Source of the DNA: Candidatus Nitrosotenuis chungbukensis
GTDB taxonomy: Archaea; Thermoproteota; Nitrososphaeria; Nitrososphaerales; Nitrosopumilaceae
Length of the DNA: 64,000 bases
Assembly: GCF_000685395.1 (NCBI RefSeq)
Contig: NZ_AVSQ01000017.1
Location: 62,001 to 126,000 of the forward strand
Reading direction: 5' to 3'
Positions 17,963-24,805 of this stretch are shown piece after piece (within the stretch, counting starts at the first letter, position 1; every line of letters begins with the position of its first letter). Made by a program: the position numbers and the translations under genes. Below the pieces are notes generated by a model. It saw only the letters and a list, made by a program, of their open reading frames with translations. It ran no database searches and had not been told where the DNA came from.

Positions 17963-20083
17963 TTAGTTTGTTTCGACTATTATTGCTGCTTTTTCAGAGT
18001 TGTCAAGCTCTTGTTGTACCGCGTTTAGGATGTGCGATACTGACGTCAGGCTTGAAAAGTCAACTAGTTTTAGGTTGTTCAAAAGGTACACCTGCGGCGC
18101 AATGTCGTTGTTTCTGGACTCTAAAAAGTCGTCTAATTCTTCTAGAATCGATATCTTTCCACCCTGGAATATTTTTGCATTTTTGTGCGATAATTTCATT
18201 CGGCCGAATCTGTCTAATACCAAGACATGGTGTCTGTTTTTCTTTGAAAACAGCTTTTTTTCTGAAACGTGTCCTGTGAATACAAAGTAATGATCAGTTT
18301 CAAAGCTCAACTCTACAAGATCCTTGCCGACTTCCATCATCTCGCTTGCCCTGATGAGCGCCTCATCAAGTGTAAAGATGTTCTTTGCGTTCTCCGCGCT
18401 GTCAAGTTCCACATTTCCTGTTGCAGACACTCTGAGTAGCGCTTTTTCTGAAATATACTCGCTGTTTATCAGAATTGATTCTGGCACTGCCCCCTTGTCA
18501 ATCATGATTGCGTGAATTTTTTTGTGCATCTCAGATATTTGCTCAGGTGTCGGGTTGGATATTGTGTGCTCTATTTCCTCCTGAATCATCGAGGATGCGA
18601 CTCCTATTGACGATATGACCTCGGCATGCTCTGCTTTTTTGTACGGCACTCCGAGCTGTTTTGCGACAAAAGGAACCAGCACTGATGCCCCTCCGCCACC
18701 GCCTATTATCTGGGTCTTTGCCTTTTCCATCTTGAACTCTTTTATGATTTTCGAAATTGCCTTTGTTATCTCAAACGATGCTGTCTGGATTACAGACATT
18801 GCCGCCTCAGGACCAGTTACCTTGAGCTCGCGTCCGAGCATCTCCATTGCAATTTTTGCAGAGGTTTGGTTTGCAAATGAATAATCGTCCTTTTCTATCA
18901 TACCAAGTGCGTTTGCGGCACACGTGTTTGTGATTGCAAATGTTTCAGTGTCGCATTTTATTGCAACGTACGGCTCAACGTCGTTTTCCTTGGGTTTTAT
19001 TGTGATGATTTTTCCTTTTTTCAAAACGTCCGGGTCTGCAAAACAGGCATACTTTAAACCTGCAATGTGGGCGCTTCGCGGACCCACCTTCCAAACCCGC
19101 CCGTCCTTTATCTTTATCATACTGCCTCCAGCCACGCCTAAAATGCGAACATCCATTGAACGGATGCACGTTGGATGGTCTTTTATCGTAACATAACGAA
19201 TCTCAGGCTTGCCATTTTTTATTATGCAGATGTTGGTGCTCGTTCCGCCAACTTCGACAAATATTCCATTTGTTACCTTGAGATACAGCAAGGCACCTGC
19301 AACACTGGCAGCCGGTCCTGAAAGAATGGTTAGAATTGGCTTTGTCCTAAACGTGTCCATGTTTGTAACTCCGCCGTCTCCTTTCATGATCATTAACGGT
19401 GCGTTGACTCCTGCGTTTCTAATGGCCTCCTCTACAAAGTTTGCGACCTCGACTGTTTTTGGAAGGACGCTTGCGTTGATTGCCGCAGTCAGCGTCCTAA
19501 TTTCAAGGCCGTAAATTCCAGAAATTTCATGCGACGCAGTGGCTGGAATGTTTCCCTGCATCGCATTTTTCATTACAAACATTTCATTTGACGGATCATC
19601 CACTCCAAACGCTTCTGTTGCGACAATTACCTTGACTCCTCTGTCCTTTAGGGAATTGATTGCATGGTGTACCTCTTTTTCTGAAATCAGGTGAGATGTA
19701 TCAAGAAAGACATGTTCTGTCTTTAGGCTTTGATCAGAGTTAAATGTGGCATCCTGTAGATTTGTTCTTTTTATGACGTCGCCTTTTTCTGGCGTCACAC
19801 CCATTGCAATTATGCCGACCTTTGCAGTGTCGGATTCAAGCAGCGCGTTAATTGCCTGAGTGGTACTGTGTGCAATTAATTCGATTTCGGATAACTCTAT
19901 TTTTGATTCATTAACTAGCTGGGATAGTGCAAGCACGATTCCTTCCGAGACGCCTTTTTGCGCCTTGTGTGTGGTGGGGGTAGTTGACTTGCCGATAAGC
20001 TGCCCAGTTTTGATGTCTATTGCTATTGCCTTTGTGAACGTGCCGCCTACATCAATTCCTACTCTAATGCGTCGTTGACTCAT
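17963..20083 (-). CDS. Hydantoinase/oxoprolinase A-like protein (HyuA family)
   Basis: This 706-residue member of the acetate/sugar kinase-like ATPase fold begins RVGIDVGGTFTKAIA, the nucleotide-binding phosphate-1 motif. It continues with HSTTQAINALLE, GDGGVTNMDTF, LSGPAASVAGA and IGGGGGASVLVPFVA. Family members hydrolyse hydantoins or 5-oxoproline with ATP, usually with a HyuB partner. No hyuB gene is adjacent here. A C-terminal extension of about 130 residues after the ATPase core is of unclear function. Its start overlaps the end of the FTR1-like gene by 20 bases, so the two are probably co-transcribed. Confidence 0.8.
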   Translation of the reverse strand: MSQRRIRVGIDVGGTFTKAIAIDIKTGQLIGKSTTPTTHKAQKGVSEGIVLALSQLVNESKIELSEIELIAHSTTQAINALLESDTAKVGIIAMGVTPEKGDVIKRTNLQDATFNSDQSLKTEHVFLDTSHLISEKEVHHAINSLKDRGVKVIVATEAFGVDDPSNEMFVMKNAMQGNIPATASHEISGIYGLEIRTLTAAINASVLPKTVEVANFVEEAIRNAGVNAPLMIMKGDGGVTNMDTFRTKPILTILSGPAASVAGALLYLKVTNGIFVEVGGTSTNICIIKNGKPEIRYVTIKDHPTCIRSMDVRILGVAGGSMIKIKDGRVWKVGPRSAHIAGLKYACFADPDVLKKGKIITIKPKENDVEPYVAIKCDTETFAITNTCAANALGMIEKDDYSFANQTSAKIAMEMLGRELKVTGPEAAMSVIQTASFEITKAISKIIKEFKMEKAKTQIIGGGGGASVLVPFVAKQLGVPYKKAEHAEVISSIGVASSMIQEEIEHTISNPTPEQISEMHKKIHAIMIDKGAVPESILINSEYISEKALLRVSATGNVELDSAENAKNIFTLDEALIRASEMMEVGKDLVELSFETDHYFVFTGHVSEKKLFSKKNRHHVLVLDRFGRMKLSHKNAKIFQGGKISILEELDDFLESRNNDIAPQVYLLNNLKLVDFSSLTSVSHILNAVQQELDNSEKAAIIVETN

Positions 20084-22286
20084 CGATTTCCCTTCTTGAT
20101 TTGCGCATTGTGGCTATTTTCTCTTCCCTTCTTGGCTTCAAAACAAGCACATATGATGCCGCTACCAGATATATTCCAAGCATGATTGCCTGTGCAATTA
20201 TTGTCTCAAGTGTCGGATAAATTCCAGTCATCTTTGCCATGTTGATATCGAGTCTTGGAACAATTCCAAGAAGGCTGGTAAACGGCAAAATGTCAAGTGT
20301 TTGTAACTCCCTTACGGCATTGCCCAAAAATGCAATTGAAAGATATGCGCCGACTCCCATCGTAAGGCCAAAAAGCATCTTGAGCGGCAGTCTTTTCCCC
20401 AGTTTTCTTGTTACAAAGTATACTCCGAGCAGGGTTGCAATTCCTGCGACAAATCCCAACCCGACATACGTTTCCATGTATTTTGCAAATCCAAACATCG
20501 CTTCATAGAACAACACTGTCTCAAATCCTTCCCGGTATACTGTGAAAAATGAAAGCATCACAAACACAGCTGTTCCACCCGTGGTTGATGCCTGCCAGAC
20601 CTTGGCTTTTACAAACTCCATCCATTTTTTATGCTCTATTTTATTTAGAATCCAAAAACTCACATAAAACAATACTGCGGTTGCGGAAAGTGCCGCAATT
20701 GCCTCGATTAGCTCCCTGTTTGCACCAGATATTCTGATGATATATGATGCAATAAACCACGTTACGGCAGTTGCTCCAATTGCCAAGACTATTCCATAGT
20801 ATACGAATCGCTTGAACTTTACATTCCTTGACGCTTCAAGATAAGTAAGGATGGCGCCAAGAATCAGAACTGACTCTAGTCCCTCTCGGAAAATAACCGC
20901 AAACGATGATGTAAACGCAATTGTTGGAGCAAGCTGGCCGGTTCCCGTGACTAGCCTTTCTGATTCATCGAGGCTTCGCCTTACTGAAATTGTAGCCTGC
21001 TCAATTTTGTCATAATCTGCCTTCTGGTTTATCAAACTTCGAAGCTCTGCAAACTGAAGTTCCACTTGTAATGTAAAGTCAGGATCAATTGTTCGCAGTG
21101 GGATTTCTACGTGTTCATAGCTGTCCAAATACGCGGTTCTTGCAGAGACAAATGCAGCCTGGGTATTGCCTTCCTTGTACTGGCTTAGCATTGTCTGGAG
21201 GGTCATTCGAATAAAGTCAATCTGGCTTCGTACGACTGACTTTTGGTCTTCTGTGGCTGAGCCCATTTCATTTGTTACTTTTTCCAGTTCAATTCCGGAC
21301 ACTGTCTGACTGGCAAGTGATGATTCTGAAATCAGATTTTCCGTATTGTCAAGGTCTACAAGTATTGGATCATTGATAAAGGACTGTATCTCATCATATG
21401 ATTTTTTTTCTTGTACCATCGCTCGCAAATTTTCCCTCATGTTTAATTCCATTTTGTGCAAGAGTGCCTCATCTGCCTTACCGATGTCCGCTTCGAGATA
21501 CTCAAAGTTGTCAAGATATGCTGCAATGACATGTTCTTCTGCTTTTGCGTAATTGCCGTCTTTGATTTCAGCCAATGTTCGGTCATAATGCTGCCTTATC
21601 ATGGCATACAAATGTTCATGATCTGATGATGCAGAGTCAGTCCCAGTAAGGTCGCGCTGTATTGTCGTGATCAGTTTTCCGACGGAGACAAAATCCTGTT
21701 TTTGGGCAATCTTTATTTTTAGCTCGTCAAAAAATGACGCAAGTTCGCCAGTCTGTCTTTCGTCAAATGACGAGTCTGACATAAACAGTTGAACTGCTTT
21801 ATCGACAAGTGACACCGACATCAAATGGTGCTCAATGTCGTTTTCTGAAATTGCGATTTGATAACTCTCGTCTGCTGCAGTCAGCAAATCAGACACAACA
21901 AATGGGACTTGCTGTGATTTTGGAAACTCGCTTACCAGTTGCTCTGCCACTGCGACATCTGCCAGTATTTCACCTGATGGCGCATTGCTTTCTATTTTGG
22001 AATGTATGTCAAGTAGCACCAAGTGCAGATCGTCTGCCTGCTTCACATTTGCCTCTCGGAGCTGGCTTATTTGGTGACCGTAAACACCGGTAGTAAACTT
22101 GGAATACTTTGCAGCTTGTCCGTAATCGTTGCCTGCTATGCTTGTTTTTACAAGGCCAATCCCAATCTGAACTATTTCGCCTGTAGACTGGATTGAGTGG
22201 TCAGTTTCGGCCTGTGCAAAGGATGCCTGACTGACCGATAAAATGGAAACCATTGCAATTGAAAGAAGAATTTGTTTGGGGGTCAC
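20064..22286 (-). CDS. FTR1-family iron permease with large extracytoplasmic N-terminal domain
   Basis: The 740-residue protein starts with a signal peptide (about 1-27). A helical extracytoplasmic region of roughly 430 residues made of repeat-like units follows, then a seven-helix FTR1 permease. The REGxE iron-binding motifs occur twice: REGLES near residue 468 and REGFET near 585. FTR1/EfeU proteins import ferric iron or relay it after oxidation. It starts with GTG; a TATA-like TTTTAAATACC about 27 bases upstream supports this. A 22-base inverted repeat at 22330-22351 precedes that TATA. Confidence 0.9.
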   Translation of the reverse strand: MTPKQILLSIAMVSILSVSQASFAQAETDHSIQSTGEIVQIGIGLVKTSIAGNDYGQAAKYSKFTTGVYGHQISQLREANVKQADDLHLVLLDIHSKIESNAPSGEILADVAVAEQLVSEFPKSQQVPFVVSDLLTAADESYQIAISENDIEHHLMSVSLVDKAVQLFMSDSSFDERQTGELASFFDELKIKIAQKQDFVSVGKLITTIQRDLTGTDSASSDHEHLYAMIRQHYDRTLAEIKDGNYAKAEEHVIAAYLDNFEYLEADIGKADEALLHKMELNMRENLRAMVQEKKSYDEIQSFINDPILVDLDNTENLISESSLASQTVSGIELEKVTNEMGSATEDQKSVVRSQIDFIRMTLQTMLSQYKEGNTQAAFVSARTAYLDSYEHVEIPLRTIDPDFTLQVELQFAELRSLINQKADYDKIEQATISVRRSLDESERLVTGTGQLAPTIAFTSSFAVIFREGLESVLILGAILTYLEASRNVKFKRFVYYGIVLAIGATAVTWFIASYIIRISGANRELIEAIAALSATAVLFYVSFWILNKIEHKKWMEFVKAKVWQASTTGGTAVFVMLSFFTVYREGFETVLFYEAMFGFAKYMETYVGLGFVAGIATLLGVYFVTRKLGKRLPLKMLFGLTMGVGAYLSIAFLGNAVRELQTLDILPFTSLLGIVPRLDINMAKMTGIYPTLETIIAQAIMLGIYLVAASYVLVLKPRREEKIATMRKSRREIDESTTH

Positions 22287-22329
22287 TGTGTGGTTAGGGC
22301 TAGCTAACGGTATTTAAAACAGAGATACG

Positions 22330-22351
22330 TTCTAAGAATCTAGAATGAGAA
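22330..22351 (-). promoter_or_regulatory. Candidate operator upstream of the FTR1-like gene
   Basis: Read on the minus strand it begins TTCTCATTCTA and ends TTAGAA. It lies just upstream of the TATA element, centred about 55 bases before the GTG start. The site at 23078-23099 has the same distance from its gene. The two match at 16 of 22 positions and both start TTCTCATT, which suggests a shared regulator, most simply one of the tandem winged-helix proteins. Confidence 0.55.
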
Positions 22352-22360
22352 TATGAAAAA

Positions 22361-22687
22361 CTAATTTGATTGCAAGTTCAATGTCGGATTTATTCCGCCG
22401 ACTATGATTTCTGCTTTCTTAATTCTGCTTTTGTAATACTTGATTTTTTTTCCGGCGTTTGAGATCTCGAATTTGTCCACATAAACAAGTGCAAGTACCT
22501 CAAGATTTGACAATATCTTGTAGACTGTGGAGATCGACATCTTTTGCTCGTCTGCAATTTTTTGTGCATCTTTTGCTTTTGTCGTGATTGAAAACAGCAC
22601 GGATCTAGAGTAAACATTTGTCAGTGTTTCTATGATTTGCTGCGTTACATCATACTGGCTGAGCTGAAAAACGGTATTTTTTTTCAT
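22361..22687 (-). CDS. Winged-helix transcriptional regulator (tandem copy 2)
   Basis: This 108-residue DNA-binding protein has a winged helix at about residues 17-95 (DAQKIADEQKMSISTVYKILSNLEVLALV, then a wing with ISNAGKKIKYYKSRI). It is clearly a paralogue of the next upstream gene, sharing YDVTQ-IIE-L, SVYK-LS-LE and a YKSRI-KA-I ending. It is 16 bases downstream of that gene and upstream of the FTR1-like permease gene. A role in metal-responsive control is inferred from context only; there is no obvious metal-binding Cys/His cluster. Confidence 0.8.
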   Translation of the reverse strand: MKKNTVFQLSQYDVTQQIIETLTNVYSRSVLFSITTKAKDAQKIADEQKMSISTVYKILSNLEVLALVYVDKFEISNAGKKIKYYKSRIKKAEIIVGGINPTLNLQSN

Positions 22688-22703
22688 AATTCATACCCTC
22701 TGT

Positions 22704-23033
22704 TTAATTCGGCGCCAAAACAAGAGTTGGCTCTGGCTTTTTGATACTTATGTCTGCCTTACTTATTCTGCTTCGATAGACTTTGAATTTTCTGCCCTTG
22801 TCAGATATCATCCAGCGCTCTACGCGAATCAGTGTCAAGTCTTCAAGATCCGACAGTTTTTTGTAAACTGAGCTTAATGGAATCTTGTATTTGTCTGAAA
22901 TTTCTGCAGCAGTTCTGCCTTGCTTGATTAGTGAAAACAGAATAGTCCTGGACTCTGCATCTGCCAGCGCCTCAATTACTTTTTGCGTTACGTCGTATTT
23001 CTTTAATTGTGGAAGTGTAAATTTGCGACCCAA
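22704..23033 (-). CDS. Winged-helix transcriptional regulator (tandem copy 1)
   Basis: This 109-residue winged-helix protein is a paralogue of the gene just downstream. The DNA-binding core is TAAEISDKYKIPLSSVYKKLSDLEDLTL, followed by a basic wing (ISDKGRKFKVYRSRI). It starts with TTG; the TATA-like gttatttaaataa (centre about 23060) lies 26-27 bases upstream, so the mRNA is probably leaderless. A near-perfect inverted repeat at 23078-23099 precedes this TATA. The site resembles the one before the FTR1-like gene, so autoregulation is likely. Confidence 0.82.
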   Translation of the reverse strand: MGRKFTLPQLKKYDVTQKVIEALADAESRTILFSLIKQGRTAAEISDKYKIPLSSVYKKLSDLEDLTLIRVERWMISDKGRKFKVYRSRISKADISIKKPEPTLVLAPN

Positions 23034-23077
23034 GACACTGTTCTACTTTGTATTGTTATTTAAATAAAATGTTATCC

Positions 23078-23099
23078 TTCTCATTCTATAAAATGAGAA
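23078..23099. promoter_or_regulatory. 8+8 inverted repeat, candidate operator of the tandem regulators
   Basis: The arms TTCTCATT and AATGAGAA are perfect inverted repeats around a 6-base spacer. The site lies just upstream of the TATA element of the first tandem winged-helix gene, centred about 55 bases before its TTG start. A related site at the same distance precedes the FTR1-like gene (22330-22351). Confidence 0.6.
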
Positions 23100-23145: not shown

Positions 23146-23874
23146 TTACTGGAATTTTGTCTGTTTTACTCTGTCTGGTTGTAGTTTCTGCCACAGTGCC
23201 CCGAGGATCAAACCGACAGATAGCCAAAATGCCGTGACTCCAACCAAAGACATTGCTCTAAACCCATTTACTAGGTCAGTTGGGGCAGTTACTGCATCTG
23301 GGTTTTGAGGCATCAATGCAAACACCATTCCAATGAACCCCGCATATCCTAAAACTGCGACGAATCTCTTGCTCCTGAGTCGCCTGAAAATCAGATAAAA
23401 CCCAAGTGCGCCAAACCCCGAAATCGCAATAAATGAAACATACAACATCTGCCTTAGGAGAATCGTTTCTGGGTCTCCAACTGTTGGTGGGTTTGCAGGA
23501 TATTTTGCAAACGGTATTAGATACAATGTAATCCACATGATTGCTGCAAGAACTAGTGCTTTTTTGGCAAAACTGTTTCCAGGAAGAATGTTTCTCGCAT
23601 ACCCGAAAACGATTCCAAACAATGCCCCAATCGCAGTGCCAAGCATTGCGCCTGCCAGCAACTGTCCTCCCTTCTGCCACGCCCTATACGAGTAATACTC
23701 TGCCCAAAACTGCGGAGTGTCTTTTGCCTCGCCAGACGTAAACATGTGCTGATTTTCAATCCCAATTGCCCTGTCCAAATACGGTTCTACAAGTGCCAAA
23801 TTTACCAGACCGTGGATGACTCCAGCTGAGCATCCAGATAGCAAGATGATTGCAATAAAAAGAGACGTCCTCAT
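23146..23874 (-). CDS. cbtA: CbtA-family predicted cobalt transporter subunit
   Basis: This 242-residue membrane protein has about five hydrophobic helices. It carries the CbtA signature FAKYPANPPTVGDPETI in the middle and an N-terminal GVIHGLVNLALVEPYLDRAIG. CbtAB genes in other prokaryotes are often under B12 or cobalt control and predicted to import cobalt; direct evidence is limited. It follows cbtB at a short distance (9 bases). Ammonia-oxidising archaea make cobalamin, so cobalt uptake would make sense. Confidence 0.88.
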   Translation of the reverse strand: MRTSLFIAIILLSGCSAGVIHGLVNLALVEPYLDRAIGIENQHMFTSGEAKDTPQFWAEYYSYRAWQKGGQLLAGAMLGTAIGALFGIVFGYARNILPGNSFAKKALVLAAIMWITLYLIPFAKYPANPPTVGDPETILLRQMLYVSFIAISGFGALGFYLIFRRLRSKRFVAVLGYAGFIGMVFALMPQNPDAVTAPTDLVNGFRAMSLVGVTAFWLSVGLILGALWQKLQPDRVKQTKFQ

Positions 23875-23883
23875 GACTTGTCA

Positions 23884-24099
23884 CTAGTGGCAGGGAAATC
23901 CTGCTGCATGTCTCATGTCATGGGTCAGTTCATGTATGTACATGTCTGCATATGCTTGTTCGCCAAAGACGATGCTGAATAATTGTCCCTGATCAAACCC
24001 TACCTCAAATATTCCAAATGCAAAAATTGTAGCTAATACAAGTAGTGCAACCTTTGGAACACTTGATTTTGAGATTGTAATCTCTTTTGAGAAAGACAT
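23884..24099 (-). CDS. cbtB: CbtB-family predicted cobalt transporter subunit
   Basis: The 71-residue protein has one membrane helix (about 15-35). A histidine-rich C-terminus follows: HELTHDMRHAAGFPCH, the typical CbtB metal-binding tail. It is the first gene of a cbtB-cbtA pair. A TATA-like gtatttaaattc (24121-24132) is placed for a leaderless start at 24099. The divergent DUF4443 gene is a candidate regulator. Cobalt specificity is inferred from the family. Confidence 0.88.
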   Translation of the reverse strand: MSFSKEITISKSSVPKVALLVLATIFAFGIFEVGFDQGQLFSIVFGEQAYADMYIHELTHDMRHAAGFPCH

Positions 24100-24160: not shown

Positions 24161-24805
24161 ATGAACACCACCCAACAAGTGCAAACACTGCAAAACATTG
24201 TATCGCGAAAAGGATCAAGCAAGGTCCTGACATTCTCAGTGCCGCACGTGTTCAAGGCATTGCAATTGTTGCATGAAAATGAATACGTGAGCAGATCAAG
24301 TTTTTGCCAGAACTTACACATGGGGGAGGGGGCCGTCAAGACAATGATCATGCACCTAAAGAAAGAATCCATGGTAGATTCGACAAAATCCGGAACCTTT
24401 CTTACTGCAAAGGGGAAGGCATTCATAAAAAATCTCCTGGAGATAATCTTTGCAGAGTGCGATATTAAAAAATGCCAAATTGCACAGGGAAGATTCAATC
24501 ACGCAGTCATTTTGAAAAATTATTCATTTGCGACAAAGACGGGGGTTGAGCAACGAGATTACACCATACTGTATGGCGCATCTGGGGCAACAACTCTTCT
24601 TTACAAGGAGGACAGGTTCGTTTTTCCAAACGAGAATATTGACTGCCTTCTAAATGATCAAAAAACCAGGAACTTGTTGACAGGTGAACTGCATCCAAAA
24701 AACGGAGATATGATAATAATTGCATCTGCAAGTGACCCGTTTGTTGCAGAGATTGCGGCAAAAAACTCTGCGCTGTGGACACTTGCCACGCACGGCAGAC
24801 AGTAA
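24161..24805 (+). CDS. HTH regulator with DUF4443-type C-terminal domain
   Basis: The 214-residue protein has an N-terminal winged helix (about 20-85; SRSSFCQNLHMGEGAVKTMIMHLKK) and a C-terminal alpha/beta domain. The C-terminal part, with YTILYGASGATTLLYKEDRFVFP, resembles archaeal DUF4443 proteins that are thought to bind small ligands or metals. Divergence from cbtBA suggests control of cobalt uptake. ATG at 24161 is used. A GTG at 24179 fits better with the TATA-like atatttaacta at 24149-24159, so the true N-terminus may be six residues shorter. Confidence 0.7.
   Translation: MNTTQQVQTLQNIVSRKGSSKVLTFSVPHVFKALQLLHENEYVSRSSFCQNLHMGEGAVKTMIMHLKKESMVDSTKSGTFLTAKGKAFIKNLLEIIFAECDIKKCQIAQGRFNHAVILKNYSFATKTGVEQRDYTILYGASGATTLLYKEDRFVFPNENIDCLLNDQKTRNLLTGELHPKNGDMIIIASASDPFVAEIAAKNSALWTLATHGRQ

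Follow-up and report, generated by a model that had tools for sequence, protein, structure and literature searches.

Introduction

Autoregulators of the ArsR type, such as Phr, have a palindromic site ahead of their own gene, and iron repressors of the DtxR/IdeR/MDR1 type have a TTAG...CTAA box that follows closely on the TATA box in transporter promoters. Features reminiscent of both types occur together at one locus of Candidatus Nitrosotenuis chungbukensis, which lies in the stretch of 64,000 nucleotides analyzed here (the window). The first of 2 tandem winged-helix genes at this locus, wHA, encodes a protein that is predicted to share the fold and the size of its DNA-binding domain with the ArsR-type proteins Phr, NolR and SmtB/CzrA, and wHA likewise has a palindromic site ahead of it. 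It differs from them in that wHA and its neighbor wHB are a tandem pair of paralogs, lack Cys and His in this genome and score under the curated cut-offs, and in that the site precedes the TATA box. As in the DtxR/IdeR/MDR1 systems, a TTAG...CTAA box follows the TATA box of a transporter gene and DtxR-family genes are present; in contrast to those systems, the box makes up only half of a composite promoter, whose other operator differs in sequence and presumably serves another class of regulator. The transporter gene encodes a protein that resembles FTR1/EfeU permeases in its PF03239 domain and 2 REGxE motifs, and differs from them in its long N-terminal extension and in having a promoter with 2 putative operators. 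Finally, the PhnD-C-E-type transporters that we describe below from related archaea are similar to PhnCDE/PtxABC importers in subunit make-up and sequence family, but they have an iron-type composite promoter, are interchangeable with FTR1, and do not reach the equivalog cut-offs for PhnD and PhnC.

Iron uptake in this group of archaea has been approached mainly through Nitrosopumilus maritimus, for which 2 studies of physiology and genomes report that iron-specific importers of any known kind are absent (PMC6776035, PMC9723733); one of them leaves a 'hitherto uncharacterised' iron importer possible (PMC9723733). In the open-licence literature we found no description of an operator, regulon or iron role of the present kind in these archaea.

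Results

Putative operators and genes of the locus

The original prediction for this DNA placed 2 inverted repeats of 22 bases ahead of the FTR1-like gene (site 1) and wHA (site 2), and we found both sites at the predicted positions, with the duplicated winged-helix genes between them and a TATA box downstream of each (Table 1). In the coding direction, site 1 reads TTCTCATTCTAGATTCTTAGAA and site 2 reads TTCTCATTTTATAGAATGAGAA. Alignment confirmed the predicted identity at 16 of 22 positions in that direction, and the figure is 17 of 22 when one site is reverse-complemented. The site centers are 54.5 and 55.5 nt, and the edges 43 and 44 nt, ahead of the start codons, so that the predicted distance of about 55 bases is right for the centers. 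Site 2 deserves the term inverted repeat: it is truly palindromic, with 10 of 11 pairs matching, and is the sole perfect repeat with 8-nt arms and a 6-nt spacer within the window. For site 1, in which 6 of 11 pairs match, the term is generous.

Table 1. Features of the locus discussed in the text (positions within the window)
Feature	Positions	Strand	Remarks
Hydantoinase/oxoprolinase-like gene	17963..20083	-	overlaps FTR1 3' end, travels with FTR1
FTR1-like iron permease gene	20064..22286	-	740 aa; PF03239; two REGxE motifs; long N-terminal extension
Putative DtxR/IdeR-type box, GTTAGCTAGCCCTAAC	22293..22308	-	adjoins FTR1 TATA box, downstream side
TATA box of FTR1 (TTTAAATA)	22311..22318	-	
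Putative operator, FTR1 promoter (site 1)	22330..22351	-	asymmetric, TTCTCATTCTA-N5-T-N-AGAA; kept before FTR1 orthologs
wHB, second winged-helix gene	22361..22687	-	108 aa, wHA paralog
wHA, first winged-helix gene	22704..23033	-	109 aa, predicted ArsR-like fold, without Cys/His
TATA box of winged-helix operon (TTTAAATA)	23057..23064	-	
Putative operator, wHA promoter (site 2)	23078..23099	-	near-perfect palindrome; kept in 56/60 loci
CbtA gene, upstream neighbor	23146..23874	-	cbtBA without operator of this type ahead
CbtB gene, upstream neighbor	23884..24099	-	

Elsewhere in the window there was no second 22-mer with at least 16 matches to site 2. When the 1.76-Mb genome was searched with the pattern CTCATTCTANNNNNTNAGAAY, allowing at most 1 mismatch, the only 2 matches were the window sites, and a backward control gave 0. 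A looser palindrome pattern matched at 25 places, against 14 in its control, and a loose palindrome search would therefore mislead.

All genes of the locus are on the minus strand; in the direction of transcription, genes and sites follow one another as cbtB, cbtA, site 2, wHA, wHB, site 1, FTR1 and the hydantoinase-like gene. The FTR1-like protein matched PF03239 with 66.2 bits (cut-off 25.3), and its translation has the REGxE motifs FREGLE and YREGFE. Where the flank of an FTR1 locus is long enough, the hydantoinase/oxoprolinase-like gene almost always comes after FTR1, other genera included, a partnership that hints at some tie to the metabolism of iron or chelators. Some genera also have, between wHB and FTR1, a gene for a secreted-looking protein of ~520 aa that is similar to part of the FTR1 protein (L069, L072, L078).

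The winged-helix proteins

An AlphaFold model of wHA (pLDDT 90) was searched with Foldseek, and the best match was Phr of Pyrococcus furiosus (PDB 2p4w); NolR, PH1932, HlyU, SmtB and CzrA were also among the best. The modeled protein thus resembles an ArsR-like winged helix. Neither wHA nor wHB reached a curated family cut-off, and the ArsR-family scores were 22.6 bits for NF033788 (cut-off 55) and 16.0 bits for PF01022 (cut-off 22). The 2 proteins are paralogs with 46% identity. Their tandem arrangement is common in the family Nitrosopumilaceae, where 143 of 151 genomes had a match to the wHB query. We observed no Cys or His metal ligands in the translations of wHA and wHB from this genome; a conserved Cys is present in wHB of most other genera. 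Because both proteins of this genome are without Cys and His, an iron-sensing site is not evident in them and direct sensing of soft metals by them would seem unlikely, and the suggestion that these particular regulators sense metal was not borne out.

Conservation and placement of the operator

A site scoring at least 14 was present before wHA in 56 of 60 loci (the exceptions being L089, L091, L092 and L093), a figure that is partly circular, as are all scores at wHA and FTR1, since the motif model was built on 35 sites from these 2 places. In a comparison that used no weight matrix, 48 of 59 wHA upstream regions beat all 300 of their shuffles (the 60th locus, L076, was set aside for a run of N); here too the result is partly circular, the consensus having been read off the same promoters. 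The common core of the sites is TTCTCATTCTA-N5-T-N-AGAA, which was found in either orientation. We rejected a purely symmetric palindrome as the description of the operator; the site is near-perfect in this sense only at wHA of the closest relatives, and elsewhere it is asymmetric and occurs in both orientations.

FTR1 orthologs were found in 49 of 151 family genomes. The original prediction had staked itself on conservation of the sites before FTR1 genes of related species, and they are conserved there: 21 of 29 testable loci have a site no more than 140 nt from the start of the FTR1 match (30 loci were fetched, of which L184, a fragment without promoter, was left out), and some of the remainder (loci of G014 and G048) have a recognizable site with a lower score. 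In the genus of the present organism, 13 of the 14 FTR1 loci fetched besides the window have a site scoring at least 12, L043 being without one.

Among 55 wHA promoters, 53 had a gap of 10–12 nt between the end of the 26-mer operator and the TATA box, and in 45 of them it was 11 nt. The gap measured 9 nt in 15 of 21 FTR1 promoters, and for the PhnD-like genes considered below it was 22 nt at 25 of 30 promoters, so that the wHA and PhnD placements are about one helical turn apart. A near-fixed distance upstream of TATA (11 nt at wHA, 9 nt at FTR1 and 22 nt at PhnD) would be in keeping with an activator, or with a regulator in contact with the basal machinery.

A second box in the FTR1 promoter

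The sequence that adjoins the FTR1 TATA box on its downstream side, GTTAGCTAGCCCTAAC, resembles the DtxR/IdeR operator consensus, and it may be the box of a DtxR-type regulator. The pattern of a TATA box plus a GTTAGCTAGCCCTAAC-type box is unique within the genome, which has 2 PF01325 (DtxR-family) matches above cut-off. In its strict form the pattern was present in 15 of 30 FTR1 loci; the wHA promoter of this genome is without a DtxR-type box. The prediction that the winged-helix regulators control both their own operon and the permease gains from the finding that the same operator stands before both and is conserved in relatives, but it needs amending in that FTR1 would not be under this operator alone.

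The putative regulon across genomes

With the motif model at E ≤ 0.003, the operator was found in 108 of 151 family genomes, and a column-reversed model found it in 0 of 151. In a class-wide draw of 200 genomes, 81 had the motif, 79 of which belong to the family; close orthologs of wHA occur within the family, and outside it only distant relatives. Two motif-bearing genomes (G020 and G212) had no wHA match, perhaps as a result of assembly gaps. A link between loss of the motif and loss of wHA was considered and did not come out cleanly, the genomes without a wHA match being mostly incomplete.

These distributions bear on whether the operator belongs to another regulator, e.g., a DtxR paralog or a global factor, with the winged-helix genes merely 2 of its targets. 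Autoregulation is read from position alone, the motif stands ahead of many genes away from the winged-helix locus, and this explanation would accommodate both the 2 DtxR-family genes of the genome and the 2 motif-bearing genomes that lack a wHA match. Yet wHA is the very place where the motif is most constant, hardly any genome with the motif lies outside the clade that has close wHA orthologs, and the DtxR-type sequence is a separate and different box. We consider another regulator unlikely, though it is the foremost competitor of regulation by the winged-helix pair.

Grouped by nearest gene, 40 distant regions with the motif comprised 11 at ferredoxin genes (in g6 and g9 the ferredoxin site is nearer a divergent parvulin-like gene, which is not so in g19), 7 at PhnD/PhnC, 4 at SufB or SufC, 2 at nitrite/sulfite-reductase family genes, 10 at TFB genes, 2 at a gene for a 103-aa protein without family, and 4 that were other or unclear. 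Thus, 24 of the 40 are ahead of ferredoxin, Suf, siroheme-reductase-type or PhnDC genes; the 10 at TFB genes, and the 6 with a gene of unassigned function or no gene after them, count against an iron regulon. In G076 a ferritin-like gene comes after a weaker site (L168), and in G037 another such gene is divergent to a TFB gene (L255). Most weak matches at the genus level led nowhere, the exceptions being L168 with its ferritin-like gene, the TFB loci L155, L095, L107 and L114, and the 103-aa gene of G116 (L154).

The organism's own genome has strong sites only at the 2 positions in the window. Its weaker matches (E of 0.02 and above) revealed no site scoring at least 15 in the 4 regions fetched (L157, L158, L169 and L172), and we rejected a wide regulon in this genome; with 2 strong sites, the iron link here rests on FTR1. 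The expectation of the motif before other iron or metal genes was realized elsewhere in the family, at ferredoxin, Suf and similar genes. The scarcity of strong copies (2 in 1.76 Mb) and the concentrated set of target genes also speak against the idea that the repeats are an upstream promoter element of constitutive kind, served by no regulator of its own. We regard this as extremely improbable; the fixed spacing from TATA would agree with it.

Two groups of sites recurred. In several genera the operator stands before genes for the basal factor TFB (L155, L229, L238, L241, L243, L245, L246, L247, L255, L260 and L267; also L095, L107 and L114), and in some of these cases a TTAG...CCTA box adjoins it, as if a general transcription factor shared the same control. 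A conserved protein of ~103 aa, which starts MSQ...LW.LVSSLKE, is encoded after the operator at L154:489, L242:1992, L253:2993, L254:1609, L256:1876 and L260:2999; the L253 copy had no Pfam or NCBIfam match.

A PhnD-C-E-type transporter in place of FTR1

For most of the other genera, the operon that follows wHB contains genes for a binding protein similar to PhnD, an ATPase similar to PhnC and a permease similar to PhnE. PhnD-like orthologs were present in 61 of 151 family genomes and FTR1 in 49, with both in 4 (G030, G049, G098 and G138) and neither in 45. The mutual exclusion held when stratified by genus (CMH p = 1.4e-6; within-genus permutation P = 5e-5); the 2 kinds did not overlap inside g4, g15 or g19, and overlapped in 3 of 21 inside g12.

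We kept 80 named PhnD-like loci, N. maritimus SCM1 not among them, and counted the 73 with at least 400 nt upstream. Of these, 67 had the motif, 64 a TTAG box with its TATA box, and 61 had motif and box together; among 1431 random stretches taken from these loci, 50 had the motif and 1 had the box. The PhnD promoters had no part in building the motif model. The iron reading of the original prediction is supported by comparative genomics, more widely than the first sequence could show, with the correction that the site-bearing neighbor in most genera is this transporter, and not FTR1.

Several Marine Group I PhnD loci retain motif and box with wHA absent from the fetched flank, and the site therefore follows the gene and not the locus alone. 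The same loci speak against the idea that the winged-helix pair regulates cobalt uptake via the adjacent cbtBA genes. CbtA and/or CbtB are encoded just upstream of wHA in 55 of 60 loci, a strong neighborhood, yet a site scoring at least 17 was found before cbtB in 0 of 60; the site lies after cbtA and points to wHA. We rejected cobalt regulation as very unlikely. Divergent to cbtB, at 24161-24805 in the window, is a gene for a DUF4443 protein with a CggR-like N-terminal DNA-binding domain, which is conserved there in many loci and is a possible regulator on the cobalt side.

The PhnD-like protein scored 140.9 bits with TIGR01098 (phosphate/phosphite/phosphonate binding protein), above the subfamily cut-off of 112.05, and the permease scored 258.2 bits with the PhnE equivalog TIGR01097, above its cut-off of 216.7; the PhnD equivalog TIGR03431 (102.1 bits, cut-off 261.1) and the PhnC equivalog TIGR02315 (200.9 bits, cut-off 266.1) were missed. 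The closest solved relatives of the PhnD-like proteins are, by name, phosphite/phosphonate binders, e.g., PtxB, and the PhnD-like proteins retain a serine-rich loop like that of the PtxB-type family. Loop and kinship argue for an oxyanion over iron as ligand.

We have weighed the explanation that the regulon answers to phosphorus or phosphonate, with PhnD-C-E a true phosphonate/phosphite importer and FTR1 incidental. Besides the 2 scores above cut-off and the proximity of PtxB, it has on its side that PMC6697440 takes PhnD of ammonia-oxidizing archaea to serve phosphonate import and to be a possible indicator of phosphate limitation; PMC8788347 also lists it. However, the other targets are FTR1, ferredoxin, SufB, SufC, siroheme-reductase-type and ferritin-like genes, the transporter promoter has a DtxR-type box, FTR1 and PhnD-like genes substitute for each other, and the PhnD and PhnC equivalog cut-offs are missed. 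Also, the survey PMC9381506 reports archaeal methylphosphonate producers to be without capacity for phosphonate catabolism. A phosphorus regulon appears to us quite unlikely, more so than control of the operator by another regulator.

One genome with neither FTR1 nor the PhnD-like operon (G070) has a weaker site (L153, 1501-1526) that is flanked on one side by an argininosuccinate-synthase-like gene and on the other by a divergent gene for an ABC-type binding protein, both named by eye; sites akin to it occur in G034 and G088 (L162, L163).

Discussion

We put at about 60% the probability that the 2 sites are operators of one regulon, in which an autoregulated ArsR-like winged-helix pair and a DtxR-type regulator control iron supply. 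The sites and how they are conserved, their spacing, the genes that they precede, and the fact that PhnDCE takes the place of FTR1 are observations; from them we infer the identity of the binder and that it does bind, the sign of control, the ligand, and iron as the substrate carried by PhnDCE. Most likely, the wHA and wHB proteins, as homodimers or a heterodimer, would bind both sites. The winged-helix operon would control itself, and the same protein would act at the next promoter on an iron-uptake system, namely FTR1 in this genus and the PhnD-C-E-type ABC importer in most other genera. A DtxR-type iron repressor would be expected at the box after the transporter TATA, where initiation would be blocked, and uptake would need both low iron (DtxR off) and a second signal, read by the winged-helix proteins.

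A further proposal is offered tentatively, at rather less than even odds: the PhnD-C-E-type transporter, annotated as a phosphonate importer, may be the missing high-affinity importer of iron, or of an iron complex, in marine ammonia-oxidizing archaea. It and FTR1 would be interchangeable at their shared locus, and a composite switch, made up of the ArsR-like pair upstream and a DtxR-type repressor downstream of TATA, may run the two.

The iron uptake of marine ammonia-oxidizing archaea is an open problem, for which the promoter logic described here names a concrete candidate importer. The composite promoter is a DNA signature for finding iron-regulated genes in uncultured relatives, and the winged-helix proteins are a proposed regulator pair for an archaeal group with few characterized transcription factors. 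If the proposal is true, the 'phosphonate' annotation that has been used to infer phosphorus stress, e.g., in PMC6697440, would mislead.
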